Virus record (IMG/VR): IMGVR_UViG_3300034071_000719
Coordinates: 1 to 64,000 of that record
DNA from: a virus
DNA length: 64,000 nucleotides
Reading direction: 5' to 3' (one strand)
Below the pieces are notes generated by a model. The model was not told the origin of the DNA, searched no databases, and was given only the letters and a program-made list of their open reading frames with translations. Positions 40,042 through 56,538 of this stretch are shown here, piece by piece (the stretch's first letter is position 1; the number at the start of each line of letters is the position of its first letter). The translations under genes and the position numbers were made by a program.

Positions 40042-40921
40042 TATTGCAGATTTAGACTGCATCTACCTAAGTTATGATGAGCCAAAAAAAGAAGAGTTTT
40101 GGATTAAGATTCAAAATATGGTTCCGTGGGCTAAACGTGTAGATAGTGTTAAAGGCAGTGATGCCGCACATAAAGCAGCCGCATCTGCAAGTGATACTGA
40201 ACGCTTTGTATTAATCGATGGCGACAACTTACCCGACCCAGAGTTCTTTAACTTACAACTTACATTAGATGATACTAATAAAGATGTAGTCTTTCGTTGG
40301 AAGGCACGTAACATCATTAATGGCTTACAGTACGGTAACGGTGGTATGAGTTGCTGGACTAAAGAATTCATCAATAATATGCGCACACACGAAGCAAGCA
40401 ACGGTGATGATGATACTGCCGTTGAGTTTTGCTTTGACCCACGCTATTGGGCAATGAATGATTGCTACAGCACAACATACCCAAATCAAAGTCCATATCA
40501 AGCGTGGAGAGCTGGCTTTAGAGAAGGCGTTAAGATGTGTTTAGATCGCGGCACTAAGCCAAATCTATTAGATTTTGAGAAGCGTGTACATGATCGGAAC
40601 TACGATCATTTAAGCATATGGCATAATGTAGGCATGGACGTAGAGAATGGTGACTGGGCAATGTACGGTGCTAAACTTGGCACATATATGACTATGATTA
40701 CAGATTGGGATTATAGAGAAGTACAAGACTTTGATGCATTGGATAAAATTTGGCATCAAAACAAAGTACTAAACTTAGTAGAAGAATGCAATGAAATGTC
40801 ACATACATTAAATGTAAAATTAGGATTACCCGCACCACATTTAACAGCAGACCAAAGTAAATTCTTTAAATATCATTACAAGAGTATGTTTAAGAATAAA
40901 GGAGTAATGTATCGTGAATGA
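40025..40921 (+). CDS. Glycosyltransferase-like protein related to the 872-residue protein
   Basis: About 298 residues from the ATG at 40025 (an ATG at 40010 is also in frame; GAG lies 8 bases before 40025). It contains AHKAAASASDTERFVLIDGDN (a DGD motif), NGLQYGNGGMSCWTKEFI and PYQAWRAGFREGVKM. The same pattern recurs in the C-terminal domain of the protein at 57434 (AYKAAAELSETPWFFAVFAKLE, NGLEYGHMGV, TWRTAFRECIKL), so they share a domain. A nucleotide-sugar transferase fold is likely but not proven. Confidence 0.5.
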   Translation: MTQIVDIADLDCIYLSYDEPKKEEFWIKIQNMVPWAKRVDSVKGSDAAHKAAASASDTERFVLIDGDNLPDPEFFNLQLTLDDTNKDVVFRWKARNIINGLQYGNGGMSCWTKEFINNMRTHEASNGDDDTAVEFCFDPRYWAMNDCYSTTYPNQSPYQAWRAGFREGVKMCLDRGTKPNLLDFEKRVHDRNYDHLSIWHNVGMDVENGDWAMYGAKLGTYMTMITDWDYREVQDFDALDKIWHQNKVLNLVEECNEMSHTLNVKLGLPAPHLTADQSKFFKYHYKSMFKNKGVMYRE

Positions 40922-41537: not shown

Positions 41538-42206
41538 ATGTTAATAACTTACGGAAGTAATAAACCGTTATGTCTGATTGGTGTTCCAAAATCAGTAATG
41601 ACACAAGAAGGATTATTTTATCTTGAGAACGGATATAATGATCCAGATCACACAGCAGGACCAATTACAGTAATCACTCCAGAAGAATTTTTGGCATTAA
41701 ATGATAAAACTGTATATCAATATTGTGTAGTGTTTACACTTGATACAGTTGCTAGAACAAATATAATTAATATTTTAGAAGAGCAACAACTAGATTGCTT
41801 TAGTTATGTACATCATACATCGGTGATACGCAACGATATTGCAATAACTGAAGTTATTGGACACGGTAGTTTTCTGTGCTCATTTAATACAGTTATGATG
41901 GGCGCAACCATCGGAAAACATTGCATATTAGAAACATATTGCCTTATATCACATTATAGTACATTAGCGGATAATGTTATTATACATTCGGGCACATTGA
42001 TTGCTGGTAAAACTAAAATCGGTAGCGGGTGTATATTTAATTTTAAAGCAGCCTCACTTAATGCATTAACAATATGTGATGGTGTTGAAGTGGGTGCATT
42101 AAGTACAGTCACTAAAGACATAGCTGTATCGGGACGATACATGGGTTCGATTGCACGATATGTGGGACCTCTAATTATATTTCAAGACCCGGGAACAACA
42201 GGATAG
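41538..42206 (+). CDS. NeuD/PglD-type left-handed beta-helix acyltransferase
   Basis: A 222-residue protein. Residues 1-90 form an alpha/beta domain (LCLIGVPKSV...), and from about 95 to 200 hexapeptide repeats are visible (IAITEVIGHGSFL, VMMGATIGKHCIL, NVIIHSGTLIAG, KIGSGCIFN, VEVGALSTVTKDI). The plan matches NeuD/PglD-like O- or N-acetyltransferases that acetylate sugars using acetyl-CoA. The neighbouring DegT-like gene is the natural partner in making acetamido-sugars. Confidence 0.75.
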   Translation: MLITYGSNKPLCLIGVPKSVMTQEGLFYLENGYNDPDHTAGPITVITPEEFLALNDKTVYQYCVVFTLDTVARTNIINILEEQQLDCFSYVHHTSVIRNDIAITEVIGHGSFLCSFNTVMMGATIGKHCILETYCLISHYSTLADNVIIHSGTLIAGKTKIGSGCIFNFKAASLNALTICDGVEVGALSTVTKDIAVSGRYMGSIARYVGPLIIFQDPGTTG

Positions 42207-42208
42207 TT

Positions 42209-42901
42209 ATGTATAAATCATGGCCATTGGCCCCAACATATGAATGGCGACGCCGAGAATTAGATCAATTAACTGCACAAGGTTATGTGTGGAATTCTCC
42301 ATCAGATGTAATTGATCTATTTGAAAAGAAAGTAGCTACTTTTGCGGGCAGTAAATATGCAGTAGCAATTGATTGTTGTTCACATGGTATATTTCTTGCA
42401 TTAAAATATCTCAAAGCATTTGGCCCAATAGATGTCCCAGCACGTACATATATATCAGTACCGGCGCAAGTTATCCATGCTGGGTGCAGTGTTAATTTTA
42501 CACAAGAAGAATGGACTGGTGTATATCAATTAACTCCGTATCCTATTTTTGATGGAGCAGTGCGTTGGCAAAAGGATATGTACAAGGGTGGGTTCCATAT
42601 ACTATCATTTCAGATTAAAAAGCGTATACCAATCGGCAAAGGCGGCATGATTCTAACTGATGATATAGATGCATACAATTGGCTTAAACGAGCTAGTCAT
42701 GATGGTAGAACATTTGGCGTTAATTTTGATCAAGATACAGTTGAAATGATAGGCTGGCACTATAATATGACTCCCGAAGATGCTGCAAGAGGTATTATGC
42801 TAATGGACCAAACAGCTGATTTCAATGAAGATTCGGGCAATTATAAATCGTACACCGATTTGTCACTATTGTCAATTTTTACAAAAACAACGGAGAAGTA
42901 A
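42209..42901 (+). CDS. Short DegT/DnrJ-type aminotransferase-like protein
   Basis: A 230-residue protein with SKYAVAIDCCSHGIFLAL (cofactor phosphate loop) and SFQIKKRIPIGKGGM, where Lys138 aligns with the PLP-binding lysine of DegT/EryC1 aminotransferases. DGAVRW stands where the family has DAAQ/H, so the Asp is kept but the Gln/His is not. The family is usually 360-400 residues; the C-terminal small domain is missing. It may be a minimal or degenerate form. A full-length homologue is encoded at 60033-61124. Stop and next start overlap. Confidence 0.6.
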   Translation: MYKSWPLAPTYEWRRRELDQLTAQGYVWNSPSDVIDLFEKKVATFAGSKYAVAIDCCSHGIFLALKYLKAFGPIDVPARTYISVPAQVIHAGCSVNFTQEEWTGVYQLTPYPIFDGAVRWQKDMYKGGFHILSFQIKKRIPIGKGGMILTDDIDAYNWLKRASHDGRTFGVNFDQDTVEMIGWHYNMTPEDAARGIMLMDQTADFNEDSGNYKSYTDLSLLSIFTKTTEK

Positions 42902-43935
42902 TGAAAGTAGATATGCAAAAACATTGGGGCAGTAAAGAACTTTATTACGTGCCCGAGTTGATTTCTAAAATAATTCATAGTATGCAAACAGATGGAACGG
43001 TATATCTATTCACTAATGAAGGAAAAAATGGTGCCAACAATGGTTTGTATAAATTATTAGATGACTTGTGCTTGTACTGGAAATGGGACAAGTCGGCTAT
43101 TACAATAGAAACATCAAACTTTATGCCTACTTCATGGTTAACAACAGAATTATTGCCAAACTATGGTAGTAGCCACCCTGACTATAATATAAAACGCACT
43201 TCGCTTAATATGATGGCGGCATATATGGATATTACTAGTAAAATATATTCATGGAATAAAGAAAAATATTACGGAATGTTTATTGCTCGTGCATCATCCG
43301 ACAGGATTTACGCTGCACATGCTCATACAAAATTTAAATTTAAGGAAATGGGGCTAACAAGTTTTAGAGAAAATTTATTCGAATATATGAGTTATCCTGA
43401 TCTAGTAGATTACTTTATGCATTCAAATCAGACATACAAAGAAATGCTAGAAGTTGTGCCACACAGTGATATAGAAGAGTTAATCCCGTCTCCGAATTCG
43501 CCATTAATTACTCCGCCGTATAATACCAGTGATTGGGGTAAGGTATACGAAAAAATAGCCATTGATATTGTATGCGAAACTAGTACTGAACCAAATTGTG
43601 GTGATGTGTCAGAGAAAGTATATCGCCCATTGTATTATAAACGACCGTTTTTATTAATTGGCTCACCGGGGCAATTTGCTATTCTGCATGAGTTAGGATT
43701 TAAAACATTTGATGGGATAATCGACGAATCCTACGATAAATTAACCGGAGTTGCTCGTGTCAATAAAGTATTTGAAATATTAGAACAATTAATTTTAGAC
43801 AACAGAATGGATACGCTGTTAGATGAATGTAAAGAAATACTTGAACATAACCATAAACAAATGATTCGATTATCTATTGAACATAGAGTAAAGCATAGAG
43901 ACGAGCTAAAAAAATTGATGGATAACGATGAGTAG
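42901..43935 (+). CDS. Putative glycosyltransferase (GT10-like C-terminal region)
   Basis: A 344-residue protein. Around residues 236-262, VSEKVYRPLYYKRPFLLIGSPGQFAILHELGFKTF resembles the donor-binding C-terminal part of fucosyltransferase-like GT-B enzymes, in which an EK pair and a P-x-x-x-G loop are conserved. The N-terminal half shows no recognisable motif. Location after the aminotransferase- and acetyltransferase-like genes fits a sugar-transfer role. Alternative: a phage protein of unknown function. Confidence 0.45.
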   Translation: MKVDMQKHWGSKELYYVPELISKIIHSMQTDGTVYLFTNEGKNGANNGLYKLLDDLCLYWKWDKSAITIETSNFMPTSWLTTELLPNYGSSHPDYNIKRTSLNMMAAYMDITSKIYSWNKEKYYGMFIARASSDRIYAAHAHTKFKFKEMGLTSFRENLFEYMSYPDLVDYFMHSNQTYKEMLEVVPHSDIEELIPSPNSPLITPPYNTSDWGKVYEKIAIDIVCETSTEPNCGDVSEKVYRPLYYKRPFLLIGSPGQFAILHELGFKTFDGIIDESYDKLTGVARVNKVFEILEQLILDNRMDTLLDECKEILEHNHKQMIRLSIEHRVKHRDELKKLMDNDE

Positions 43936-45313
43936 TAATTTTATGTCGGCTGCAGAGGAAATGAAGGACAAGTTAGGTCCTGCACTCTGCTTGGCTAAAT
44001 GGCAACAAGTAAGTCTACATTTGCCAACTGGACTAACAAACAGTTGCTATCATCCGCCCTTACACGAAATTGATAGTGCGCCACTACTATTTAATCCGGG
44101 TGCGCTACACAATACTGACTACAAGAAACAGCAACGTAAACTTATGCTAGAGCAAACACGCCCGGCAGAATGTAGTTATTGTTGGAGTGCAGAAGATAAC
44201 AACCAACTAAGCGACAGACACTATCGCTCCGGTGAACCATGGGCGGCTGAACACTATGAAGAAATAGTAAACGCACCATGGGACCAAGACGTTGTACCGA
44301 GTTATGTTGAAGTAAACTTCAGTCATGGCTGTAACTTAGCATGTTCATATTGCTCCCCACAATACTCAACAGAGTGGGGTAAGGATACAGACAGATGGGG
44401 TGCGTATCCAACAAGCGTACCACACAATGCGCCTGAACACTTTCAAGGTCGCCGCAAGCCAATCCCAGTACGCGAAGCTAATCCGTATGTTGAAGCATTT
44501 TGGCGTTGGTGGCCCGAGCTGTATCCTAAGCTAAAACACTTTAGAATGACTGGTGGTGAACCGCTTATGGATAAGAATACGCACCGTGTATTTGATTACA
44601 TACTTGCACTACCAAAAAGTGATTTACACGTTGATGTAACTAGTAACTTCAGTGTTGAGCCACAAGTATTTGAAAAGTATTTAGACAAAGTTAAACAACT
44701 ATGCACGGGCGAACGTATAGAACACTTTATGCAGTATGTTAGTCTAGATACTGGACTTCCTGCACATGCAGAATATATACGCGATGGGCTATATTGGGAT
44801 AGAGTCATGCGATATTCTAACGCTTTCCTAACAGAAGTGCCATACCGCAATAGCCTAACGTTTATTATCACAATGAACAATTTAAACATACTTGGACTAA
44901 AACTTTTATTGACTCAGATATTAGAGATGCGTAACAAATACAGCACAACTTATCAACGTGTGTGGTTCGATACGCCACTATTACGTAGCCCAACCTATCA
45001 AAGTTTACAAATACTCCCAGCAAGTTATGTTCGCATATTAGAAGATGTTGTTACGTTTATGCGAACAAATCAAGCAGACGAAACAGCTGATAACTTCGAA
45101 GGCTTTAAAGATTATGAAATACAACGTATGGAACGTAATGTTGAATGGATGAAACAAGGTTGCGAACTCTCGAAGGAATATGTTACAATACAAAGAGCAG
45201 ACTTCTATAGATTTTTTAATGAATATGATAAACGCAGAGGTTTAAACTTTTTGGAAACATTCCCACAGATGACAGAATTTTGGCAGGAGTGCAAATACCA
45301 TGCCGAAACGTAA
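43928..45313 (+). CDS. Radical SAM protein 1 of 7, N-terminal twitch type
   Basis: A 461-residue radical SAM enzyme. The [4Fe-4S]-SAM motif C-x3-C-x2-C is CNLACSYC (Cys135, 139, 142), and TGGEPLM follows near residue 203. The N-terminal half-SPASM (twitch) domain has CLAKW, NSCYHP and CSYC, which probably hold an auxiliary cluster. It is the closest match to protein 3 (PYVEAF...WW, TGGEPLM, HAEYIRDGL, YD.RR), so the two are likely duplicates. Start overlaps the preceding stop by 8 bases. The chemistry and substrate are unknown. Confidence 0.85.
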   Translation: MSSNFMSAAEEMKDKLGPALCLAKWQQVSLHLPTGLTNSCYHPPLHEIDSAPLLFNPGALHNTDYKKQQRKLMLEQTRPAECSYCWSAEDNNQLSDRHYRSGEPWAAEHYEEIVNAPWDQDVVPSYVEVNFSHGCNLACSYCSPQYSTEWGKDTDRWGAYPTSVPHNAPEHFQGRRKPIPVREANPYVEAFWRWWPELYPKLKHFRMTGGEPLMDKNTHRVFDYILALPKSDLHVDVTSNFSVEPQVFEKYLDKVKQLCTGERIEHFMQYVSLDTGLPAHAEYIRDGLYWDRVMRYSNAFLTEVPYRNSLTFIITMNNLNILGLKLLLTQILEMRNKYSTTYQRVWFDTPLLRSPTYQSLQILPASYVRILEDVVTFMRTNQADETADNFEGFKDYEIQRMERNVEWMKQGCELSKEYVTIQRADFYRFFNEYDKRRGLNFLETFPQMTEFWQECKYHAET

Positions 45314-46460
45314 TAATGCATTTTGCATTAAACCGTGGACGCAAGCATGTATCAGAACAAATGGTGATATTACTTTATGCTGTCAGAGTTTAGAAAAATC
45401 AAACTTTAATTTAAAAACATCAACAATAGATGCTTGGTGGAATAGTGAATTTGTGTCTACAACCCGAACTCAAATGTTAAACAAAACTATTCCACCGGCA
45501 TGCATGAGTTGTGCAGCAGAAGAACAACAAGGTAGTATTAGTTTACGGCAAAAATCTAATAAAGAATATAAAATTTTTGAGCAATACGCAGAGCAAACAC
45601 TATCACATTTTCGTTATCCTATGCTATCGCCTATCGAAATGGAAATACAACTTACTAATTTATGTAATTTAAAATGTTTAATGTGTGCCGAAGAGGCAAG
45701 TAGTGCTTTATTAAGCGAGAATATGCGCTTAAGAATAAACATATCCAAGCCCGATGATTACACTTTAAGTGATAGTGACTTTAATAAGATACAGGCATGG
45801 ATTGCAACCAAACCTAAATCGATTAATTTTCGCGGTGGCGAGCCACTCGTGGTGCCAGAAATTAAAAGGTTATTACAGTGGGGAGTAGAGCAGGAATTGT
45901 TGGCAGACACAGTAATACATATATCTACAAATGCAACTAAATTAGATAATGAATGGATGTCTATACTAACATCAATTAAGCAATTACGAATCATGGTCAG
46001 TATAGATGCAATCGGACAGTTAAATGATTATATTCGATTCGGTAGTAAATGGGATATAATTAACACCAATGTTGCTAAATTATCACGTATACCAGGAATA
46101 AATTTAGTAGTACATGCCACTATACAAAATTTAAATATCCTATCTATAGGAAATTTGATTACTTGGTGTGAATTAAATAGTTACTTTTTTGATTTTACTA
46201 TTCTGTCAGAGCCGACTATATTCAAACTTACTAATTTACCATCTAATTTGTTGTCTGACGCAATGCATAATCTTAGGGAATTGTCTGATACGGCAGGTAA
46301 TGGAGCACACCTGGCTGACATTGTTGAGCATGCGATTCAATCGTCGGATTCCCAATGGGATAATTTTAAAAATGAAATTAATATGAGAGATCAAGCAAGG
46401 AATACATCTATTCTAGATATTATTCCACAATTCAGAGAGTATTGGCATGCCAAAAATTAA
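45300..46460 (+). CDS. Radical SAM protein 2 of 7, N-terminal twitch type
   Basis: A 386-residue radical SAM protein. Twitch cysteines are CIKPW, TLCC and CMSC; the radical SAM motif is CNLKCLMC (Cys122, 126, 129) with RGGEPLV downstream, and NDYIRFGSKWD in the second half. The C terminus (DIIPQFREYW) shares the short FPxxxxW-like tail seen in the others. It starts 14 bases before the previous stop, and the next gene starts in the same arrangement (MPKRNN, MPKINN), suggesting a duplicated junction. Confidence 0.85.
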   Translation: MPKRNNAFCIKPWTQACIRTNGDITLCCQSLEKSNFNLKTSTIDAWWNSEFVSTTRTQMLNKTIPPACMSCAAEEQQGSISLRQKSNKEYKIFEQYAEQTLSHFRYPMLSPIEMEIQLTNLCNLKCLMCAEEASSALLSENMRLRINISKPDDYTLSDSDFNKIQAWIATKPKSINFRGGEPLVVPEIKRLLQWGVEQELLADTVIHISTNATKLDNEWMSILTSIKQLRIMVSIDAIGQLNDYIRFGSKWDIINTNVAKLSRIPGINLVVHATIQNLNILSIGNLITWCELNSYFFDFTILSEPTIFKLTNLPSNLLSDAMHNLRELSDTAGNGAHLADIVEHAIQSSDSQWDNFKNEINMRDQARNTSILDIIPQFREYWHAKN

Positions 46461-47781
46461 CAACGAAACAGATTTAGAATATAAGCGTAGAGTGATCGAC
46501 ATTAAGTCGGATAGCTTTTGCGCGGCCAAATGGTACAATGCTACTATATGGTTAGGGTCAGGGCAGACTACAAGTTGCCATCATCCGCTACCACATCAAA
46601 TCGATATAGAAGCAATTAAAACAAATCCAAGTGCAATACACAACACTCCACAAAAGAAAGAACAGCGTAGACAAATGCAAGTAGGCGAACGACCCGCGGG
46701 CTGTGACTACTGCTGGAAGATAGAAGACATGAGCACAGATGCAGTTAGTGACCGTGTATATAAGACTGTAATTTATAATGACAAGGACTTAGATGATGCA
46801 TACAATTTACCTGCAAGCGAAGATGTTAACTTACAAACTTTGGAAATTGCCTTTGACAGAACTTGTCAGTTTGCTTGTTCTTACTGCAATCCTGCTTTTA
46901 GCACTAGTTGGGTTAGGGATATACATCAAAACGGCGCATACACCAATTTGGTTTCAGATGGCAGAAATCACTTTACTCATGAGCATAATAGTAGTCAATT
47001 GTTTAAACTCAATGAAGTTAATCCATATGTCGAAGCGTTCTTCAAATGGTGGGAAACAGACTTACACAAAACATTAAAAGAGCTACGCATTACAGGTGGC
47101 GAACCACTAATGTCGGATAACACATGGCGCTTAATCGATTGGTTTAAAGCACACAAAGGCGAAAGTAAAACACGTCTTGCTATTAACAGTAATCTCGGCT
47201 TTAAGCGTGAGATACTTGAACGCTTACTTGATAGCACACAAGGACTTGAGCTTGACATTTACACTAGCAACGAGTCAATGGGTAACCATGCAGAATATAT
47301 ACGTGATGGGCTAGATTGGAAACAATGGAGTGAGAATTTAATATTTCTACTAGAGTCTAAAAAAGTACGTGGCATACATGTCATGGGTACAATCAATGCA
47401 TTGTGCTTATCTAGTCTGAGTGAATTCTTATGGAATATGATGAAACTTAAAGAGAAATATGGTCGGGAAGCATTATCGTTTACATTAAACATTTTACGCT
47501 TTCCTAGCTTCCAAAGTCCGCTTATACTTCCGATCGAACTTCGTACAAAATATAGTAACGAGCTTGCAGAATTTTTGTTTAATAATAAAGAGAATGCGGT
47601 ATTACACGAACATGAACGTGAACACATTAAACGTTTGATTGATTACTTAAAGCAAGATACACAAGTTGACAGTAATTTACAAAACGATTTTAAACAGTTT
47701 TATCAGCAATACGACCAACGTCGTGACAAAGACTTTAAATACACGTTTACACAATTAACTAACTGGTACGAAACACTATGA
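46447..47781 (+). CDS. Radical SAM protein 3 of 7, N-terminal twitch type
   Basis: A 444-residue protein with twitch cysteines CAAKW, TSCHHP and CDYC, radical SAM motif CQFACSYC (Cys140, 144, 147), TGGEPLM and HAEYIRDGLDW. It groups with protein 1 by the SC[YH]HP variant of the twitch domain and by long shared segments. It overlaps the previous gene by 14 bases and the next by 4, so all are one translational unit. Confidence 0.85.
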   Translation: MPKINNETDLEYKRRVIDIKSDSFCAAKWYNATIWLGSGQTTSCHHPLPHQIDIEAIKTNPSAIHNTPQKKEQRRQMQVGERPAGCDYCWKIEDMSTDAVSDRVYKTVIYNDKDLDDAYNLPASEDVNLQTLEIAFDRTCQFACSYCNPAFSTSWVRDIHQNGAYTNLVSDGRNHFTHEHNSSQLFKLNEVNPYVEAFFKWWETDLHKTLKELRITGGEPLMSDNTWRLIDWFKAHKGESKTRLAINSNLGFKREILERLLDSTQGLELDIYTSNESMGNHAEYIRDGLDWKQWSENLIFLLESKKVRGIHVMGTINALCLSSLSEFLWNMMKLKEKYGREALSFTLNILRFPSFQSPLILPIELRTKYSNELAEFLFNNKENAVLHEHEREHIKRLIDYLKQDTQVDSNLQNDFKQFYQQYDQRRDKDFKYTFTQLTNWYETL

Positions 47782-49112
47782 AAATAAAAAAGACCAAGGG
47801 CAATTTTAAAAACTATGATTATAATAGTACCATGCCCTTATACTGTGACCCTGCAGACTTAACAGCAAAACATAAAGAACTCTTAACAGAAAGTAAAGTA
47901 TTCTGTATACTGCCGTGGATTCATATGCATGCGTTTCCAGACGGAAGAGCATACCCTTGCTGTTTAGGCGAAATGTGGCAACCGATTGGTGACTTGCGCA
48001 AAAATACAATGGAAGAAGTATGGAATGATGCGCCTATGCGTAAGATGCGTACAAACATGTTAAATGATAAACCGTGTAAAGAATGTACTAAGTGTTACGA
48101 ACTAGAAGATAATAGTTTCTTTAGTATGCGCAATAGCTTTAGTAAGGACTTCGGTCATTTAATCGAACTAAGCGATGCTACCAACGATGATGGTAGCTTA
48201 GATGATTTTACATTACGTTATTATGATGTACGTTTTAGTAATTTATGTAATTTTCGTTGCCGTAGCTGTGGTCCTATCTTTAGTAGTAATTGGTACAATG
48301 ACCATGTTAAACTGTATGGTAAAAAGCCCGAGGTACTAGGTAAAGAAATGGCAATGGTTGAATATGCCGGCCGCCACAAGTATGATATGTGGGAGCAAAT
48401 GCAAGAACATATCCCTAACTTAGAACAAATATACTTTGCTGGTGGCGAACCACTTATCATGGAAGAGCATTACATGATTCTTAAAGAATTGGTAGCTCAA
48501 AAATTATTCCATGTTCGTTTAATATATAATACTAACTTTAGCGAAATGGTATACAAAGGGCAAGATGTATTTGAACTTTGGAAATTGTTTGATAGCGTAA
48601 GCATCGGCGCAAGTTTAGATGATAATTATGCACGTGGCGAATACATGCGCAAAGGACAAGAGTGGGAACAAACAGAAGCCAATCGCCGTCGAATGTTAGA
48701 AGTCTGTCCAAATGTAGACTTTTATGTAAGTAGCACTGTTAGCTTATATAATGTATTACATGTAACAGAATTTCATAGAGATTGGGTTGAAAAAGGACTA
48801 GTGCGCCCGCAAGATTGGAATATTAATCTATGCCAAAGTCCAGACAGAATTCGTGCAGATGTATTACCTGATGTATATAAACAACAAGCAATTAAGAAAA
48901 TTGAAGAGCACATAAAATGGCTTGAACCGCAAGATTCTATTAGTAGAGCAACTGGCGGATACAAAGGGATTATTAATTTCTTAAATCAACACGATAACAG
49001 TCACTTTTTACCTGAATTCTTTAAGTCTAATGATGAAGTTGATGTAGTTAGAGAAGAGAAGTTCGAAGAAGTATTTCCAGAATATGCAGAGTTGAGATCA
49101 TATGTCAAATAA
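47778..49112 (+). CDS. Radical SAM protein 4 of 7, N-terminal twitch type
   Basis: A 444-residue protein with CILPW, YPCC and PCKECTKC as the putative auxiliary-cluster ligands, radical SAM motif CNFRCRSC (Cys157, 161, 164), AGGEPLI and RGEYMRKGQEW. The C terminus ends EVFPEYAELRSYV. It belongs to the C..PW/CC subgroup with proteins 2, 5, 6 and 7. Overlaps: 4 bases with the previous gene and 11 with the next. Confidence 0.85.
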   Translation: MKIKKTKGNFKNYDYNSTMPLYCDPADLTAKHKELLTESKVFCILPWIHMHAFPDGRAYPCCLGEMWQPIGDLRKNTMEEVWNDAPMRKMRTNMLNDKPCKECTKCYELEDNSFFSMRNSFSKDFGHLIELSDATNDDGSLDDFTLRYYDVRFSNLCNFRCRSCGPIFSSNWYNDHVKLYGKKPEVLGKEMAMVEYAGRHKYDMWEQMQEHIPNLEQIYFAGGEPLIMEEHYMILKELVAQKLFHVRLIYNTNFSEMVYKGQDVFELWKLFDSVSIGASLDDNYARGEYMRKGQEWEQTEANRRRMLEVCPNVDFYVSSTVSLYNVLHVTEFHRDWVEKGLVRPQDWNINLCQSPDRIRADVLPDVYKQQAIKKIEEHIKWLEPQDSISRATGGYKGIINFLNQHDNSHFLPEFFKSNDEVDVVREEKFEEVFPEYAELRSYVK

Positions 49113-50313
49113 TGAATTACCTAAAACTATATGTATGGTACCTTGGATTAGTGTCGAAACTAGCCCAATAAGTACTACCCGTCCTTGCTGTTTAGCATTA
49201 GACGAAATTACTCGCACCGACGGTACTAAGTACAGTCTTAAAGATAGTACATTAGAAGAAGTTTATCATAGTCCATATATGCAAAATTTACGTCAAGAGT
49301 TTTTAGATGGCAAGAAACCAGAAACATGTAAAAGATGCTGGGATGAAGAAGATGCTGGCCGCGCAAGTAAACGAATAAACAGTAGAATTCGTCTTAAAGA
49401 GTACTACGATCAAATTGATTGGACTAATACCAATCCTAATCAGCTGTGGTTCATTGACTTAAAACTAGGTAATATTTGCAATCTAAAATGTCGTATATGT
49501 GGTAGTTGGTCTAGTAGTAAATGGGCACAAGAAGAAATCGCATACATGCCGGAACTTAAAAATAAAAAAGAACATCTTGCATATAAATTTTTAACAGATG
49601 GAGCATGGCCACGGGAAAGTGTTGATTTTTGGGAGAACTTAAAATCATTATTACCAAACATTAAGTACTTTGAATTTACAGGTGGTGAGCCATTTTTAAT
49701 CAAAGAACACTTTGAGCTTTTGCAGTATGCAGTCGAACATGGCTATAGTAAAAATATTGAAATACATTATAATACAAATGGAACAGTGTTTCCAGAGAAT
49801 GGTGCTGAACTATGGAATCAATTTAAACGTGTAGAAGTTGCATTTAGTATAGACAACGTTGGCGCTCAATTTGAGTACGAACGGTATGGCGCAATCTGGG
49901 ATGAAGTACAAACAAACATAGCTAAGTTCAATGCAATGCGCAATGATATAATTACTACGCAAATATGTTTAACTATCAATATACAAAACGTATACTATCT
50001 GCCAGAATTATGTGAATGGATTAATACACAAACATTTGACCATACATATTTTAATATGTTGCATGATCCAAATCACATGAACATTAACAATATGACTCCT
50101 GCAGCAAACAAGTTAGTTATCCAACGTCTGTCGGGATATGCTTTTTCACCTAGACATAAAGCTGAAATAATTCGTATTATTAAATTTATCGAAAACGGCA
50201 AAGGCGGTAGCGGACAAGATTTTATGCGGAAAATGCAAACAACAGATGCATATCGCAATGAAAGTTTCTTGACCACACACAAAGAAATTGCACTTGCAAT
50301 GGGCTATAAATGA
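49102..50313 (+). CDS. Radical SAM protein 5 of 7, N-terminal twitch type
   Basis: A 403-residue protein. Twitch residues are CMVPW, RPCC and CKRC; the radical SAM motif is CNLKCRIC (Cys126, 130, 133) with TGGEPFL, and FEYERYGAIWD follows. It is complete, with all cluster cysteines present. The next gene starts within its stop codon region (ATGA overlap). Confidence 0.85.
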   Translation: MSNNELPKTICMVPWISVETSPISTTRPCCLALDEITRTDGTKYSLKDSTLEEVYHSPYMQNLRQEFLDGKKPETCKRCWDEEDAGRASKRINSRIRLKEYYDQIDWTNTNPNQLWFIDLKLGNICNLKCRICGSWSSSKWAQEEIAYMPELKNKKEHLAYKFLTDGAWPRESVDFWENLKSLLPNIKYFEFTGGEPFLIKEHFELLQYAVEHGYSKNIEIHYNTNGTVFPENGAELWNQFKRVEVAFSIDNVGAQFEYERYGAIWDEVQTNIAKFNAMRNDIITTQICLTINIQNVYYLPELCEWINTQTFDHTYFNMLHDPNHMNINNMTPAANKLVIQRLSGYAFSPRHKAEIIRIIKFIENGKGGSGQDFMRKMQTTDAYRNESFLTTHKEIALAMGYK

Positions 50314-51347
50314 TAACACGGTGTAATGCGCCGTGGGTAGCACGGTTTATTAATCCAACTGGGCGAGTAACACCGTGTTGTTACATAGTACCGACTAATA
50401 TAGAAAAACTCAAAGAATCATTTGATAACGGTATAAAAAGCCCAGCATGTGGTTATTGTTGGTTGGCAGAAAAAAATAATGTACATAGTCCTCGGTTAGA
50501 TTATAATAACTTGCTGGGCAACACAGTAACTCACTTAACTATTAATTTAGGTAATTACTGCAATGCTGAATGTATAATGTGCAACGGTAATACTAGTAGT
50601 AGCCGCAATTCATGGGCGCGATTACATAGCCCAAAAGAATTTAAAATTAATGTAATACCCGAAGCCAATATTGATAATTTTGATTTTTTGGAATATCCGG
50701 ATTTAACAACATTAACTCTATTAGGTGGCGAACCAGCAATACATCCGAGCACTATTAAAATTTTAAATCAATTAATAGAACAGGATTTAGCAAAGAATGT
50801 AAACATTAGTTTAAATACTAATGCCAGTAAACTTGATGATATATTGATAGACAGACTCCGTTGTTTTAAAAGTATATCGGTTACATTAAGTATCGACGGA
50901 ACCGGCAAGTATTTTGAATATCAGCGCCGCCCCCTAAGATGGGATCAAGTTAAAGTAATTGCTGAGCAATGGATGGAGATTAGTGAAAGCATAGTTATTA
51001 ATTATGTAGTAACTGCGATTAGTGTGTGGTCATTTAATGATTTTATTTCGTGGTTTGTAGAGTTGCCTGATTCAATTCATAACAAACAGCCACAAATTTC
51101 AATGAATCAGGTCTGGGTGATGAATCATGCATACCTAACGTTGGCTGTATTAACAGACGATCAAAAACAACAATGGTTAGTAGAAGCAATTGATCATCCG
51201 GCTAAGCAAGATATAATAAACATTTTAAATAGTGTAACTTATAACGCAGCTCAATGTACAATCTTCAAAGAAAAAATGAAATTAGAAGATATAACTGCTA
51301 AATTAAAGTTTGCTGAGATATTTCCGGACTGGCTACTAAATGACTAA
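50310..51347 (+). CDS. Radical SAM protein 6 of 7, N-terminal twitch type, shortest
   Basis: A 345-residue protein, the smallest of the series. Twitch cysteines CNAPW, TPCC and CGYC; radical SAM motif CNAECIMC (Cys84, 88, 91); LGGEPAI; and FEYQRRPLRWD. The linker between the twitch domain and the SAM motif is much shorter than in the others. The C terminus (FAEIFPDWLLND) keeps the conserved tail. Confidence 0.85.
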   Translation: MITRCNAPWVARFINPTGRVTPCCYIVPTNIEKLKESFDNGIKSPACGYCWLAEKNNVHSPRLDYNNLLGNTVTHLTINLGNYCNAECIMCNGNTSSSRNSWARLHSPKEFKINVIPEANIDNFDFLEYPDLTTLTLLGGEPAIHPSTIKILNQLIEQDLAKNVNISLNTNASKLDDILIDRLRCFKSISVTLSIDGTGKYFEYQRRPLRWDQVKVIAEQWMEISESIVINYVVTAISVWSFNDFISWFVELPDSIHNKQPQISMNQVWVMNHAYLTLAVLTDDQKQQWLVEAIDHPAKQDIINILNSVTYNAAQCTIFKEKMKLEDITAKLKFAEIFPDWLLND

Positions 51348-52626
51348 ACCACAAACACTTTGTTTAGCACCGTGGGTACACACATATCTTTCACCACAAA
51401 CTGAAAGACGTATGTGTTGTGCTAGTCGCGAGCCGGCGCAGAACTTTGAACAGTATATCGACGTCTCGGCGGGTACAGGGCGTTATATACCAATAACTCT
51501 GGATGAACACTGGAATAGCGAGCACATGCGGTCGGTCCGTCGTCGCATGATTGCTGGGGAAACCCTCCCAGAGTGTGAGGTATGTAATGATAAACTGTTG
51601 AATACATCAGTTTACCGTAGTTATTTTGATCAGATGTTTGGTGATAAATATTTACAAGTAACAGAAACAACAGATTCAACGGGTTACACAACAATGCGCC
51701 CTGTAAGTTGGGATTATAGATTTAGTAATCTGTGCAACTTTAAATGTCGTATGTGTGGTGATATGTTAAGCAGTGCTTGGGAAACTGAGCAACGTCAACA
51801 TAATATGATTAACTGGCATAACCCCAAGAACAATTGGATGAAGCCAGAAGTAAAGCAAGAAATTACAGCATTTCAAGATAGTCAAATAGAACAAGAGTTT
51901 GCTCGAGCAGTCGAAGATCATCAAGTTGAGGAAGTATATTGGGTAGGCGGTGAGCCACTAATGTATGAACAACACTGGCGTTATATGAAACGCATTATTG
52001 ATTTAGGAGATGGCAAACATGCTTACGCACGGTACAATACAAATCTTAGCCGCGTCAACTATCGTGGCGTCAATCTCTACACTGACATTTTATCTGGGCT
52101 ACGCGATTGGCAAATCTGTGCCAGTCTCGACGGAACTGGAGCAATTGGAGAATATATTAGAACAGGACTTGATTATAATCAATGGCTTGAAAATTTCCGT
52201 GAAGGAGTTAGAATTGCAAGTCACAGACGCCAAATGCGAATTGACTTCACTCTCACACTGCCCGGCATGTTTGAAGTCACAAACATTACCCAGCTTGCTT
52301 CGGAAGAAAACGTAGACATACTGGCTAAAGTTGTTTTCGGCTTTAGCCCAGACATTATCCTTAGTCCCCTTGCACTACCACGCGACTTACTACATCCATG
52401 GTTAGACGAACTAATCCCGCAAACTTCTGGAGCCATGCAAGATATACTTGTACAGCTAAAATCACGACCAACGTTCGACGAGCAATGGCCTGATACATAT
52501 AAGAAAGAGCTTGACAAAGGTAAGCAACGTGTGTTACAATTAGAAAGTATACGTAACGATACATATACGTTAGCAGACATATTAAAAGAGAGACCCGAAG
52601 TATATGAATGGTACCAATCAATCTAA
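51340..52626 (+). CDS. Radical SAM protein 7 of 7, N-terminal twitch type
   Basis: A 428-residue protein with CLAPW, RMCC and CEVC twitch cysteines, radical SAM motif CNFKCRMC (Cys132, 136, 139), VGGEPLM and GEYIRTGLDYNQW. It ends DILKERPEVYEWY. It overlaps the previous stop by 8 bases and the next start by 23. An alternative plus-strand frame of about 98 codons inside it (52019-52315) has a good ribosome site but is probably fortuitous. Confidence 0.85.
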   Translation: MTKPQTLCLAPWVHTYLSPQTERRMCCASREPAQNFEQYIDVSAGTGRYIPITLDEHWNSEHMRSVRRRMIAGETLPECEVCNDKLLNTSVYRSYFDQMFGDKYLQVTETTDSTGYTTMRPVSWDYRFSNLCNFKCRMCGDMLSSAWETEQRQHNMINWHNPKNNWMKPEVKQEITAFQDSQIEQEFARAVEDHQVEEVYWVGGEPLMYEQHWRYMKRIIDLGDGKHAYARYNTNLSRVNYRGVNLYTDILSGLRDWQICASLDGTGAIGEYIRTGLDYNQWLENFREGVRIASHRRQMRIDFTLTLPGMFEVTNITQLASEENVDILAKVVFGFSPDIILSPLALPRDLLHPWLDELIPQTSGAMQDILVQLKSRPTFDEQWPDTYKKELDKGKQRVLQLESIRNDTYTLADILKERPEVYEWYQSI

Positions 52627-53776
52627 AGTAACTGTAACACTACGCAACCCGCTAGATTTTGCAGATCAACTTGAATACTATATTATTCCTAATGATACAC
52701 AGTTGGCAGCCGATTGGATTATTGCCCTCAAAGAAATTCTATCAGCTAATAATCAATTAGAGAAGAATTATTGTTTTATGGGATTTCCGGAGTCTGCTAG
52801 AACACTAGAATATCTATGCGAACAAACAAATATTGCAGTTGAAATAATTAATAAATTTGATTTTACTCTTTACGGATTGGATAATTATATCATTGAAGAA
52901 TGGTTTAATCTTGATACAGTTCGATTTCCTGCTTCCTACCCTATCGAAGGTTCATTTGATAAACCCGGTACCGTCACTAATTCTAAACGTGTAGAGATTG
53001 GATTATATCCAAAACACAGTATATTGAATAGATTACATACACATTTCGAGAGATTACAAGGAACAGTTGATAATCTTAGCGAGTATTACAAAGTAGCAGA
53101 TTACAATACAAAATATGCTATTAGACAATTAAATATATTGTGTCACGAAATGGAATCGTTGATACTGAGTCAGCGAAAAAAAGCAAGCACACCGGAATGG
53201 ATTAGACCTAGCCAAATTACGACTTTCTTAGGAATAAATAGATTTCCGTTGGATAAATCACATATTACTGGATTTGCTAGCAACGGGTACGACCGTAGAT
53301 TTGGTCATGTATACATGCACTGGGCACAAATAGGCAAGACATTAATGGAAGTATTTCACGATGAAGCGGCACCCGATCTGACCTCAACTATATGTGAGAC
53401 CATTAATAGTTTAAAATATTATAGCGGTGAGTTTGATATTGAATGGGCAAAGGATGTTACCAAAGCAGATAATTATCCGTGGGTAACTAAACAAGCTGCT
53501 GAATTTACTGCATGGCTAATTCAGCAAGGCCTCGATATTACTGATCCTTCATTGAGCCTAGGTTATCTTCCTATAGGTCAGGTCGATCTTATTGCTAGTT
53601 TTGGAACCAGCGATATGGTTACTGTATGGGATATGTTAAGTACGCACCTAGACATATACAAAATAGAAGTCGACGGAGTAAGTAACACTTTTGATTATTG
53701 TTGGTCAGACGATGACTATAAACAAAAACAAATAGATATGATGAAACCGGGATATGATTTTAGTAGCCGCAGGTGA
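52604..53776 (+). CDS. Protein of unknown function linked to the radical SAM run
   Basis: A 390-residue protein with no recognised motif. It begins with a beta-strand region (KVTVTLRNPLDFADQLEYYIIPND), has NYCFMGFPESARTLEYLCEQ and, in the middle, a helical segment (LHTHFERLQGTVDNLSEYY). His- and Asp-containing stretches (THFERLQ, FGHVYMHWAQIG) could bind metal, but this is speculation. It begins inside the last radical SAM gene and ends inside the next SGNH gene, so it is probably part of the same pathway, possibly a partner or substrate-handling protein. Confidence 0.5.
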   Translation: MNGTNQSKVTVTLRNPLDFADQLEYYIIPNDTQLAADWIIALKEILSANNQLEKNYCFMGFPESARTLEYLCEQTNIAVEIINKFDFTLYGLDNYIIEEWFNLDTVRFPASYPIEGSFDKPGTVTNSKRVEIGLYPKHSILNRLHTHFERLQGTVDNLSEYYKVADYNTKYAIRQLNILCHEMESLILSQRKKASTPEWIRPSQITTFLGINRFPLDKSHITGFASNGYDRRFGHVYMHWAQIGKTLMEVFHDEAAPDLTSTICETINSLKYYSGEFDIEWAKDVTKADNYPWVTKQAAEFTAWLIQQGLDITDPSLSLGYLPIGQVDLIASFGTSDMVTVWDMLSTHLDIYKIEVDGVSNTFDYCWSDDDYKQKQIDMMKPGYDFSSRR

Positions 53777-54464
53777 TAGTTTTGTATGGGGAATAGAACT
53801 AGCTAATTGCGTTCACTATAACATTGGTGGGCACAGCCTAAATTCCTTTCCGGCTTTGTTAGCTCAACAATCTAATATGAGATATATATGTGCAGCAATG
53901 CCGGGTAATGCTAATAATGCAATTGGTAGAATGGCAATTGACGCATTGAGCAAAATAGATGACGATAAGTTTTTATTAGTTGAATGGACTTATCCACAAC
54001 GCTGTGAATTTAGAATTAACGACAAGTGGGTTAGCATAAACAGCTGGCATACTGACGCTAAAGAATTTAGTGAAAGTTATTTTAAACATGCCGGCGATAG
54101 CGAATACTACGAAATTTACTCTATTCTTAAAGAAATAGTATTTCTGCAACAATATTGCATGATAAACAAGATACCATATATGTTTATGACTGCTAACAAT
54201 CATTTCTATAAACATGAAAATTATTTTAGATACAGTGATACTAATTTGACGAACTTATTTAATCAAATTAATTGGGATAATTGGTTTTGGTTTGATGCTC
54301 CTGCACCAGCAACTGATCAGCACACACCAAGAGGATTCTACCAATGGGCAGTTGAAAATAAGTATAAAGTAGGCCGAAATGGCCACCCCCTTGAAGAAGC
54401 ACATAAAGATGCTGCAATATTAATTAGGAAGAAATTCAATGAATTGGCTGCTAAACATAATTAA
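53754..54464 (+). CDS. SGNH hydrolase-like protein
   Basis: A 236-residue protein with block I GDSFVWG (Ser9) and a C-terminal NGHPLEEAH that supplies the catalytic His. The CAAMPGNANNAIG segment fits block III (GxNxx). SGNH enzymes are esterases or acyl hydrolases; in this island the substrate may be an acylated glycan. The ATG is within the preceding reading frame. Confidence 0.7.
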   Translation: MILVAAGDSFVWGIELANCVHYNIGGHSLNSFPALLAQQSNMRYICAAMPGNANNAIGRMAIDALSKIDDDKFLLVEWTYPQRCEFRINDKWVSINSWHTDAKEFSESYFKHAGDSEYYEIYSILKEIVFLQQYCMINKIPYMFMTANNHFYKHENYFRYSDTNLTNLFNQINWDNWFWFDAPAPATDQHTPRGFYQWAVENKYKVGRNGHPLEEAHKDAAILIRKKFNELAAKHN

Positions 54465-54540
54465 TCGTGTTAAATTAGAAATACGTTATCGTAAGAAACT
54501 TAAAGAATTGCGTAAGCGCGATCCATTTATCTATAAATGA
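54439..54540 (+). CDS. 33-residue conserved basic protein
   Basis: A short gene overlapping both SGNH genes: ATG at 54439 with AGGAAG upstream, TGA at 54538-54540 overlapping the next ATG. The product is a basic helix ending KELRKRDPFIYK, a tail pattern I recall from small proteins of T4-like aquatic phages. Net charge is strongly positive. It may bind nucleic acid or membrane. It is the only small basic peptide beside the radical SAM run, so it could be a modified peptide, but nothing in the sequence shows this. Confidence 0.6.
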   Translation: MNWLLNIINRVKLEIRYRKKLKELRKRDPFIYK

Positions 54541-55082
54541 TTTTAGTAAACGGCGATAGTTTTACTGCTGGTGAAGAAAGTGATATTGCCTGGCCGGAGT
54601 TAATTGCTGATACTGTAAATATTGCTGTACCTGGTGCTAGCAATGATTATATACTTAGATCAACAGTTGATTATGTAGATAATAATAAAGTTGATTATGT
54701 AATAATAGCGTGGACTAGCCCCAATCGAATTGAATTACCAAACAAACACCTAACATCTGCTAGTTATAAGAAGTATGGACCAGTGGTTAATAGTGTATTT
54801 GCTGAATGGGATACAGAGTGGGCATATAAGAAATTTATTGCGCAAACTAAATTATTAGATTGTTACTTAACAATGCCGCATTTGTTTGTAAGTACATTTG
54901 ACATACAAACAGTGGCACAAGGTAGTGGGTTAGATTGTTGGCTAGGCTGGCCACACGAAGGATTAGTAGAGTGGATGGGCAACTGTCTAAAAGGTTCTGG
55001 TGGACACCCACTGGAATTAGGACATCAACGAATAGCGGAAAAAATCAATGAACATATTAGGCATCTCGGCTGGGTTTCATGA
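54537..55082 (+). CDS. SGNH hydrolase-like protein, short
   Basis: A 181-residue SGNH protein: block I NGDSFTAG (Ser8), GASNDYI as block III-like and GGHPLELGHQRIA as the His-containing block V. It is shorter than the neighbouring copy but keeps the main motifs. It begins in the stop of the 33-codon gene and ends inside the carbamoyltransferase gene. Confidence 0.75.
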   Translation: MILVNGDSFTAGEESDIAWPELIADTVNIAVPGASNDYILRSTVDYVDNNKVDYVIIAWTSPNRIELPNKHLTSASYKKYGPVVNSVFAEWDTEWAYKKFIAQTKLLDCYLTMPHLFVSTFDIQTVAQGSGLDCWLGWPHEGLVEWMGNCLKGSGGHPLELGHQRIAEKINEHIRHLGWVS

Positions 55083-56538
55083 CGCAGCAATTACATTAAT
55101 CAAAGGCGATGATATTGTCTTTGCAGGTCACGCTGAACGTTATAGCAAAATTAAACACGACCCAAACTTAAACGTTGAAATGCTCAGAGATTGTATATTC
55201 AATTATGGCGAACCTGATTTAATTGCATATTATGAAAGACCGTGGGTTAAAAAGACACGACAACTTTATGCTGGACAATACAGTGAACTAACTAAAGGAT
55301 GGAGTGTACGCAACATGATACACAAAGTCGCTCCGTGGTTAAGTTCTACTCCAATCAAAACATACAATCATCACCTATCACATGCGGCCGCTGGCTTTCA
55401 AACTAGCCCGTTTGATGATGCAACAGTTGTTGTAATTGATGCAATTGGCGAGTGGGATACTATTAGCATATGGTCTGCAAAATATGTCAATGGTAAGGCA
55501 CAATATACAAGAGTGTGGCGCCAATTATACCCACACAGCATCGGCTTAATGTACAGTGCATTTACTAAAGAAGTTGGCCTACGTCCGCTAGATGAAGAAT
55601 ACATTTTAATGGGCATGGCGGGCTGGGCAAAACAAGACACAACACGTTTAAGTGACCAACTTTCAAATTGGTTAGTTGACCACGAGTTTGAGCTAACATT
55701 AAAACATAACTTACATATCGGTCTACCCGACAATGATATAAAAGCAAAATGGAATGACTTTGAGATTGCTAATGCGGCTCAGACATTAACAGAACAATTG
55801 ATACACAATATAATGTATAAAGCAAAAACACTAGCACCTAGTAGTAACTTGGTATACTCGGGCGGTGTTGCGCTTAACTGTAGTGCTAATAGAGATTTAG
55901 GAGAATATTTTGATAACATTTGGATTATGCCCAATCCTGGCGATGCTGGTAGTAGCCTCGGTGCTGCAGCGTTGGCGCACGGTAGCAAACTTAACTGGGT
56001 GGATGCTTTTCTCGGGCATAACATTACTGGCCCTTATCCCTGTACTGATATTGTATCTGCATTAATGACAAACAAGATTGTTGGCGTTGCCAATGGTCGT
56101 GCAGAATTTGGACCAAGAGCGTTGGGCAACAGAAGTTTACTAGCTGACCCACGCGGCCCTGATATTAAAGATGCTGTAAACTTAATTAAACGTCGTCAAC
56201 AGTTTAGACCATTTGCTCCTATAATACTAGAGGAGTTTGTTGATGAGTATTTTGAAATGCCCAATGGATTTAAAACAAGTCCGTACATGCAAACGACTGC
56301 AAAGTGCTTGCGTCCTAACGAATTTCCTGCTATAATACATATAGATGGTACAAGTAGAGTACAGACTGTTCCACGTGATAACAGTGGTATACGTGAACTA
56401 TTGTGTTTATGGTATACATGGACAGGTTGTCCGATGTTGCTTAATACAAGTTTAAATGTACGCGGTGAACCAATGGTAAATGATCGTGCCGATGCAGATC
56501 GCTTTGAAGAACTGTATGGAGTAAAGGTACTAAGTTGA
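55048..56538 (+). CDS. NodU/CmcH-type carbamoyltransferase
   Basis: A 496-residue protein. NILGISAGFHDAAITLI (residues 2-18) is the ASKHA-type start; HHLSHAAAGF (His108, 109, 112) holds the metal-binding histidines; VYSGGVALNCSAN and NPGDAGSSLGAA bind the nucleotide; and RAEFGPRALGNRSLLADPR is the C-terminal YrdC-like/carbamoyl-AMP region. The enzyme uses carbamoyl phosphate and ATP to O-carbamoylate sugars or small molecules. It is shorter than typical bacterial members (560-610). Carbamoylation of a phage or host glycan is the likely use. Confidence 0.9.
   Translation: MNILGISAGFHDAAITLIKGDDIVFAGHAERYSKIKHDPNLNVEMLRDCIFNYGEPDLIAYYERPWVKKTRQLYAGQYSELTKGWSVRNMIHKVAPWLSSTPIKTYNHHLSHAAAGFQTSPFDDATVVVIDAIGEWDTISIWSAKYVNGKAQYTRVWRQLYPHSIGLMYSAFTKEVGLRPLDEEYILMGMAGWAKQDTTRLSDQLSNWLVDHEFELTLKHNLHIGLPDNDIKAKWNDFEIANAAQTLTEQLIHNIMYKAKTLAPSSNLVYSGGVALNCSANRDLGEYFDNIWIMPNPGDAGSSLGAAALAHGSKLNWVDAFLGHNITGPYPCTDIVSALMTNKIVGVANGRAEFGPRALGNRSLLADPRGPDIKDAVNLIKRRQQFRPFAPIILEEFVDEYFEMPNGFKTSPYMQTTAKCLRPNEFPAIIHIDGTSRVQTVPRDNSGIRELLCLWYTWTGCPMLLNTSLNVRGEPMVNDRADADRFEELYGVKVLS

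Follow-up and report, generated by a model that had tools for sequence, protein, structure and literature searches.

A conserved phage cassette of five radical SAM enzyme classes linked to tail-fibre-like genes

INTRODUCTION

What a phage gains from a row of radical S-adenosylmethionine (SAM) enzymes, and whether such a row is a peculiarity of one genome, are questions raised by a 64,000-nt stretch of viral DNA (positions 1 to 64,000 of the 79,576-base IMG/VR record IMGVR_UViG_3300034071_000719; hereafter the window). Seven open reading frames (ORFs) for radical SAM proteins, here named P1 to P7, follow each other at 43928-52626 with a few bases of overlap at each junction. The analysis showed that the window carries a cassette that is conserved in a group of uncultivated aquatic tailed phages. 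Five classes of these enzymes, named 1, 3, 4, 5 and 7 after the window proteins, stand behind the final protein of a tail block (T), two small conserved proteins (t, k) and putative glycosyltransferases (g, g, G), and are followed by a frequent partner (U), SGNH-like proteins (S) and a carbamoyltransferase (C).

A first-pass annotation, made from the sequence, had described the run as unusual, had ascribed it to repeated duplication and had counted one such protein per phage as known. Several radical SAM genes per phage were in fact already published (PMC5332604, PMC2853527), and radical SAM cassettes are also reported in PMC7029224; in the available text of these three papers such genes are listed as auxiliary metabolic or iron-sulphur (Fe-S) genes. 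Several features of the record are of T4 type: it encodes a late sigma factor, baseplate wedge proteins, and a phosphoesterase paired with an SMC-type ATPase, these last two being read as gp46/47-like.

RESULTS

The seven proteins belong to one radical SAM subfamily

Profile searches showed that all seven proteins pass the curated cut-off (170 bits) of the NCBIfam model NF033640 'N_Twi_rSAM', P6 barely (174.2 bits). The gathering cut-off of Pfam Radical_SAM PF04055 (29.5 bits) was passed by P1, P2, P5 and P6, and P3, P4 and P7 scored under it (24.5-28 bits). When P1-P7 were aligned, the CxxxCxxC and GGEP motifs were invariant in all seven, as were the C and W of C..[PK]W, the second C and the CxxC motif of the N-terminal domain; SCxHP is found in P1 and P3, and CC at the same place in the other five. 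Pairwise identity is 18-34%. The N-terminal part of P4 matched the SPASM model TIGR04085 below its cut-off (E 0.0017). These results confirm that P1-P7 are members of one N-terminal-twitch subfamily, and the first-pass description of seven overlapping genes of this type with complete motifs was thus borne out. Cluster binding by the N-terminal domain itself is a prediction from the conserved cysteines.

Runs of such genes are common in related phages

Related loci were collected by IMG/VR scans with six seeds, five of which were N_Twi genes (a choice that favours such genes) and the sixth the U family. Confirmed loci numbered 26 for P4, 39 for P5, 1 for P2 and 74 for U, and the best 80 of 134 and the best 80 of at least 599 were kept for P7 and P3, respectively. 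The resulting 300 sequences (299 loci and the window) were reduced to 174 groups by merging loci that share an identical protein. The loci reach about 21 kb at most, so run lengths are lower bounds. Both CxxxCxxC and GGE were kept in 1474 of 1508 profile matches, and 46 of the 1508 (under 100 bits or not carrying both motifs) were dropped from the run counts. The longest contiguous N_Twi run was 0 in 10 groups, 1 in 2, 2 in 18, 3 in 29, 4 in 65, 5 in 31, 6 in 16 and 7 in 3, the window included. In 20 whole records chosen for size or long runs, 7-16 NF033640 matches were found in each (E <= 0.001; not all over cut-off), and because ten of these records measure 316-374 kb, the relatives include jumbo phages. 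The run in the window as an isolated oddity is therefore rejected; runs of four or five are the commonest, but seven lies at the top of the range.

A tblastn search (E 1e-5) of 50,697 phage records, from which records very near the window's may be left out, gave no match for P3, U or G. P4 and P7 matched only distant proteins of Vibrio phages (about 22-25% identity), and P4 also matched one equally distant marine viral fragment. The sequenced Vibrio phage K566 (L300) carries a small divergent N_Twi group, with two genes over the NF033640 cut-off and three below it at 133-155 bits.

Five classes form an ordered, nearly single-copy set

A tree was built from 832 proteins of 300-620 aa, which clustering at 62% reduced to 132 representatives; the size filter removed the fused 4-5 proteins. 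Classes were defined as the largest clades with exactly one window protein; one class per window gene thus follows by construction, and copy number and order do not. The results showed that classes 1, 3, 4, 5 and 7 each occur in 147 to 155 of 164 loci (Table 1; the counts for classes 4 and 5 leave out 11 fused proteins), as a single copy in 147, 149, 143, 144 and 155 loci, respectively. FastTree support for the five clades was 0.935, 0.999, 0.999, 0.465 and 1.0. All five classes were present in 127 of the 164 loci, each of which stops at about 21 kb or where its contig ends, and the commonest pattern was 1-3-4-5-7 with no other member (73/164); the order 1-3-4-7-5 was seen in 4/164. P2 and P6 belong to rare clades (Table 1) and look like later additions.

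The classes differ in the N-terminal domain. C..KW and SCxHP are present in 305 and 302 of 309 proteins of classes 1 and 3, and C..PW and CC in 445 and 461 of 463 proteins of classes 4, 5 and 7. Retention of CxxxCxxC and GGE (772/772) and of GGEP (770/772) in the core classes is close to a matter of construction, the sequences having been picked by CxxxCxxC and GGE, and is not used as evidence.

In 11 loci, classes 4 and 5 are joined in one protein of 837-857 aa with two full motif sets, the halves of which are 61-63% identical to P4 and 58-68% identical to P5. An assembly artefact is unlikely, to judge from the two complete units and consistent length in 11 dereplicated loci. Three loci (L111, L221, L280) have a domain of about 120 aa in front of class 4, three others (L137, L195, L219) have a related one in front of class 5, and L299 has such a domain before both. 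Because the two classes are fused in 11 loci and a related domain occurs before either, we infer that classes 4 and 5 may work as a pair. The predicted model of the fusion (mean predicted local distance difference test score, pLDDT, 87.9; predicted template modelling score, pTM, 0.59) is good at the level of single residues but does not fix the relative placement of the halves. Foldseek searches of the Protein Data Bank (PDB) with this model gave SPASM/twitch-type and viperin-type enzymes as best matches. Other extensions were seen as well: in L140, a class-4 protein continues into an additional C-terminal domain, SGNH-like by eye, and three class-1 proteins (L215:6326-8263, L224:6932-8872, L143:3045-4979) have an N-terminal extension of about 185 aa.

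The set is linked to tail-block genes and sugar-type enzymes

The usual order in the related loci is T-t-g-g-k-G-1-3-4-5-7-U-(S S)-C, and the partner families recur in 85 (t) to 162 (G) of the 174 representative loci (Table 1). The linkage to glycosyltransferase-like genes, U, SGNH-like genes and the carbamoyltransferase that had been noticed in the window is therefore conserved in related phages. The individual calls fared unevenly. The carbamoyltransferase is clear, whereas the SGNH calls have a sub-threshold match or none (a GDS motif was seen by eye) and no flanking glycosyltransferase call passes a cut-off. G is read as GT2-like because a bacterial protein of its family (L335) passes the Pfam GT2 cut-off (30.0 versus 23.3 bits); another piece falls below it (E 0.0014). 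Assignments of F to GT10 fucosyltransferases and of g to GT8 are at most readings by eye, have no profile support and were not retained. Other loci have members of the F family interspersed among their radical SAM genes. For a family present in 31/174 loci (L240:14068-15084), assignment as an amidinotransferase was dropped, its sole Pfam match being PylC-like and sub-threshold.

The association with the tail block was examined from T, a starting point independent of radical SAM genes. The best 80 of 254 T-seeded loci were kept. Of these, 26 ended less than 6 kb beyond the final gene of the T block and were set aside, giving 54, and removal of 13 near-duplicates gave 41. The results showed that N_Twi genes are present in 53 of the 54 loci (40 of the 41 dereplicated), the sole exception (L352) ending 6.4 kb beyond the T block. 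Both g and G were found in all 54 and t in 47. In 81 of 82 loci, a T-block gene lies at most three genes upstream of g.

A simple Kyte-Doolittle scan found no hydrophobic segment in the 30 window ORFs from 35147 on. Inside the radical SAM spans of the related loci, 37 of 1071 ORFs have one, mostly class 3 and class 7 radical SAM proteins (20/161 and 12/155, respectively). Pfam scans of 20 cassette and surrounding proteins, which used no dedicated models, named no flippase, ligase or lipid-carrier transferase. No core peptide of the kind found in ribosomally synthesized and post-translationally modified peptides was recognized by eye in t or k; the survey covered ORFs down to 50-60 aa.

The AlphaFold (AF2) model of U is confident (pLDDT 87.5, pTM 0.85) and had no PDB match at E <= 0.001 in Foldseek. 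When 334 chains from Foldseek's own list were re-examined with VIA, cyclophilins made up most of the best 50 rows (Z 8.3-9.4 over 129-147 residues). Because Z values of 7-8 are common for models without relatives, which limits the weight of this likeness, a cyclophilin-like barrel with a helical insertion is kept for U as a lead only. A viral structure library gave nine matches to U at E <= 0.001, all of them uncharacterized phage proteins.

Table 1 Features of the window from the tail block to the end of the cassette region
Feature	Position	Strand	Evidence and occurrence
Tail-fibre-like protein (T block)	33745..35106	+	PHROG tail fiber phrog_2631, E 2.5e-10
Tail-fibre-like protein (T block)	35147..36769	+	PHROG tail fiber phrog_19602, E 2.2e-10
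T, final protein of tail block, proposed acceptor	36782..37720	+	Virion protein by position only; no family match in profile searches
t, conserved small protein, 105 aa	37800..38117	+	Family in 85/174 loci
g1, putative glycosyltransferase, unconfirmed	38101..38862	+	Family g in 123/174 loci; no profile match
g2, putative glycosyltransferase, g1 family	38853..39707	+	Pfam Mannosyl_trans3 E 0.063, below cut-off
k, conserved small protein, 116 aa	39691..40041	+	Family in 111/174 loci
G, putative GT-A (GT2-like) glycosyltransferase	40010..40921	+	Family in 162/174 loci, a count covering both G-family genes of the window; window protein without profile match
Hexapeptide acyltransferase, NeuD-like	41538..42206	+	Pfam Hexapep 39.7 bits, over cut-off; TIGR03570 E 7e-27, below cut-off
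Short DegT/DnrJ/EryC1 aminotransferase	42209..42901	+	Pfam 55.1 bits, over cut-off, partial length
F, glycosyltransferase-like by eye only	42901..43935	+	Family in 117/174 loci; no profile match
P1, radical SAM class 1 (core), 461 aa	43928..45313	+	NF033640 283.6 bits; class in 148/164 loci
P2, radical SAM, accessory, 386 aa	45300..46460	+	NF033640 285.5 bits; clade in 16/164 loci
P3, radical SAM class 3 (core), 444 aa	46447..47781	+	NF033640 291.3 bits; class in 155/164 loci
P4, radical SAM class 4 (core), 444 aa	47778..49112	+	NF033640 387.9 bits; class in 147/164 loci
P5, radical SAM class 5 (core), 403 aa	49102..50313	+	NF033640 352.3 bits; class in 151/164 loci
P6, radical SAM, accessory, 345 aa	50310..51347	+	NF033640 174.2 bits; clade in 15/164 loci
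P7, radical SAM class 7 (core), 428 aa	51340..52626	+	NF033640 289.5 bits; class in 155/164 loci
U, frequent partner, 390 aa	52604..53776	+	Family in 156/174 loci; predicted cyclophilin-resembling barrel with helical insertion (lead only)
S1, SGNH-like by eye	53754..54464	+	Family S in 108/174 loci; no Pfam match
S2, SGNH-like, sub-threshold	54537..55082	+	Lipase_GDSL_2 E 0.042, below cut-off
C, carbamoyltransferase	55048..56538	+	Pfam Carbam_trans N and C over cut-off; 137/174 loci
Second G-family protein, 872 aa, repeated units by eye	57434..60052	+	Clusters with 40010-40921
DegT/DnrJ/EryC1 aminotransferase	60033..61124	-	Pfam 290 bits; 73/174 loci
NAD-dependent sugar epimerase/dehydratase	61121..62107	-	Pfam Epimerase 141 bits; 63/174 loci

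The second G-family gene at the end of the cassette is also present in many relatives. An eighth radical SAM protein, of another type and with a B12-binding domain, is encoded outside the window at 74618-76627 of the record.

The five classes also occur together in a bacterium

A single search of the Genome Taxonomy Database (GTDB) with the class-4 alignment yielded 20 loci. In four of them (L301-L304), tail genes, g, g and G accompany the set, whose order is 1-3-4-7-5 as far as the contig reaches; these four are read as marine phage contigs in bacterial bins. Another, on an 83.9-kb Bacteriovoracaceae contig (L306), holds eight N_Twi genes beside genes that by eye look like obg, rpmA and lgt. 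In a tree with bacterial members, each of the five phage classes (1, 3, 4, 5 and 7) is joined by a member from this contig before any other phage class, with supports of 0.992, 1.0, 0.973, 0.865 and 1.0, respectively. Because all five classes are represented on a single bacterial contig, the set must be old and have been passed on as a unit, in one direction or the other; the trees place its origin before the split between the phage and bacterial forms. Most other bacterial loci of the scan have a single N_Twi gene and no cassette. One Paenibacillus N_Twi gene lies inside a gene cluster (L307:6308-20272) read by eye as acyl-carrier and ketosynthase genes, and on a Bdellovibrionales chromosome N_Twi genes adjoin what by eye looks like a set of polysaccharide ABC exporter genes.

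These results bear on two expectations of the first-pass annotation. Repeated duplication is not supported for P1, P3, P4, P5 and P7, for which recent tandem duplication is rejected on the trees and the chromosomal set; only P2 and P6 look like later additions. Isolated copies without linkage, which had been expected to speak against a common pathway, are rare among the phage loci (a longest run of one in 2/174 groups, a figure affected by the bias of the U seed), but single unlinked N_Twi genes are common in bacteria.

In 116 genomes of a Bacteriovoracales-type order, N_Twi proteins over the cut-off were found in 58. G was found in nine, all of which also have N_Twi genes, and in at least seven of these G lies within about 5 kb of one. 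In the bacterial chromosome of one genome (G051; L344/L350, contig C21), T-t-g-g-x-G and several further radical SAM genes stand close to a gene that by eye looks like pheT. Because T-g-g is present in this one genome of the 116, its T-t-g-g block is read as phage-derived, and it may be a hint at the hosts of these phages. The survey suggests that radical SAM enzymes and G are the older chemical core and that T-t-g-g is the phage part.

DISCUSSION

What the cassette makes was proposed from its composition and linkage. The reading that we prefer, to which we give a probability of roughly 0.4, is a soluble multistep pathway for a radical-SAM-tailored glycan that is placed on tail-fibre proteins. 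The soluble GT-A-type enzymes (g, g, G) would build a short glycan, on which radical SAM enzymes of the five classes would carry out successive radical steps, classes 4 and 5 working together, candidates being epimerization, dehydration and C-C or C-N bond formation. The carbamoyltransferase, the SGNH-like proteins and the accessory aminotransferase and acyltransferase could then decorate the glycan, and the product would be attached to the tail-fibre proteins (T), with U as a possible protein-binding partner. The decoration may be strain-specific, given that P2, P6, F and the sugar enzymes differ between loci. The first-pass annotation had left the target as virion or host; the linkage to T leans towards the virion.

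Several observations weigh against the glycan pathway. Its substrate, chemistry, product and acceptor are all inferred, and T counts as a virion protein by position only. For g, G and F of the window, no profile hit passes any cut-off, and among the solved relatives of the radical SAM enzymes there are both peptide-modifying enzymes and enzymes with nucleotide-type substrates. Support for class 5 is weak in the tree of phage proteins (0.465) and reaches 0.865 when bacterial members are added. In about 21 kb around the five-class cluster of the bacterial contig (L306/L329), no homologues of G, g, U or C were found, and the enzymes may thus not depend on those partners. Finally, T and g were each found in one of the 116 genomes surveyed, the same one (G051), whose own T was in the query. 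With N_Twi proteins in half of these genomes and nearly always without T or g, the radical SAM chemistry does not need T, which counts against T as a general substrate of N_Twi enzymes.

The bacterial cluster, without glycosyltransferases of these families, speaks for direct modification of a protein, in which the radical SAM enzymes would act on the T (or t, k) polypeptide before glycosyltransferases act on the same protein. Cross-links or epimerized or otherwise altered residues, as with SPASM maturases, would be the products, although we consider both the route and these products unlikely. T is a regular neighbour, the nearest solved structures include the maturases SkfB, CteB, SuiB and anSME, peptide maturases are numerous among the sub-threshold profile matches of P1-P7, and the frequent partner U resembles cyclophilins in its predicted fold, with the reservation made above. 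BlsE, viperin and MoaA, which have nucleotide-type substrates, match about equally well, however; inspection of t and k by eye revealed no core peptide of a precursor, and the cassette contains several sugar enzymes. A broader formulation covers both this route and a glycan pathway, and we hold it only slightly less probable than the preferred reading: five radical SAM enzymes working as a relay, two of them (4 and 5) as a double enzyme, would rebuild a tail-fibre protein, either its backbone or an attached glycan, and this unit would be common to a large group of uncultivated phages and Bacteriovoracaceae.

If the target were instead the host, its O-chain or capsule might be changed during infection so that competing phages are excluded. 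The gtr-type cassettes by which phages modify O-antigen have a membrane flippase and a membrane glucosyltransferase. The window ORFs scanned have no hydrophobic segment, and the Pfam scans of 20 proteins, made without dedicated models and without the rest of the genome, named no flippase, ligase or lipid-carrier transferase; these results and the tight linkage to tail proteins weigh against remodelling of the host surface, which we consider improbable, a shade more so than direct protein modification. In its favour are the sugar epimerase, the aminotransferases and the NeuD-like acyltransferase nearby, the position of Bdellovibrionales N_Twi genes beside a putative polysaccharide exporter, and a published proposal of this kind for the glycosyltransferases of pelagimyophages, which also gained radical SAM cassettes (PMC7029224).

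A small-molecule pathway, giving a diffusible or nucleotide-like product such as an inhibitor, a cofactor or a compound against competitors that is not attached to the virion, appears the least probable by a clear distance. Carbamoyltransferases, aminotransferases and radical SAM enzymes do occur in antibiotic pathways, BlsE and DesII are among the structural matches of the 4-5 fusion model, and the Paenibacillus gene lies among genes that by eye are acyl-carrier and ketosynthase genes. In nearly every phage locus examined, though, the set is positioned directly behind the tail block, and the hydropathy scan revealed no membrane exporter in the part of the window that it covered.

The analysis turns an inventory oddity into a testable pathway of five defined enzyme classes tied to tail proteins. 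If tail-fibre decoration is true, it would bear on host recognition in phages that lack tblastn relatives for P3, U and G, and would add five enzyme classes. To our knowledge, a relay of this kind acting on tail-fibre protein would be the first case of radical-SAM post-translational modification in a virus particle.

Comparison with known systems

Arrays of radical SAM genes in phages have been described before, and in the available text of those papers (PMC2853527, PMC5332604, PMC7029224) the ordered five-class set, the fusions, the linkage to tail proteins and the chromosomal set are absent. Literature searches on the subfamily, on phage-encoded radical SAM proteins and on radical SAM proteins in jumbo phages did not find the ordered set described in the text that was available.

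The Campylobacter phages CP220 and CPt10 are similar in having 11-12 radical SAM proteins, with five genes in an interchangeable module (PMC2853527). They give nine and ten matches, respectively, over the Pfam Radical_SAM cut-off, and none to NF033640 over its cut-off (best 31 and 35 bits). Their radical SAM proteins are a different subfamily, and the module is rejected as the same kind of system. An environmental viral genome of T4-like type, in which 12 radical SAM genes were counted, shares with the window the presence of many such genes in one T4-like phage, but is treated in the available text under Fe-S metabolism, without analysis of subfamily or linkage (PMC5332604). The pelagimyophages are likewise T4-like aquatic phages with glycosyltransferases and a variable region by the tail-fibre genes. 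Their host recognition cluster has gained radical SAM cassettes, and its glycosyltransferases are read as a means of O-chain modification. Freshwater SAR11 phage genomes are reported to be without radical SAM proteins; the cassettes are described there, as far as the available text goes, without classes, order, tail-protein linkage or fusions (PMC7029224).

With the solved enzymes SkfB, BlsE, CteB, viperin, SuiB, anSME and MoaA, the proteins of the cassette share the core fold, as indicated by Foldseek with the 4-5 fusion model and by the sequence profile. They differ in aligning only partly (TM-score by target 0.27-0.52 among the matches listed) and in the N-terminal place of their extra cysteine domain. 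A further comparison is with NF033640 N_Twi_rSAM itself, whose cut-off and motifs are common to P1-P7; the name of that model carries no function, and the cassette adds to it five distinct classes, an ordered set and fusions.

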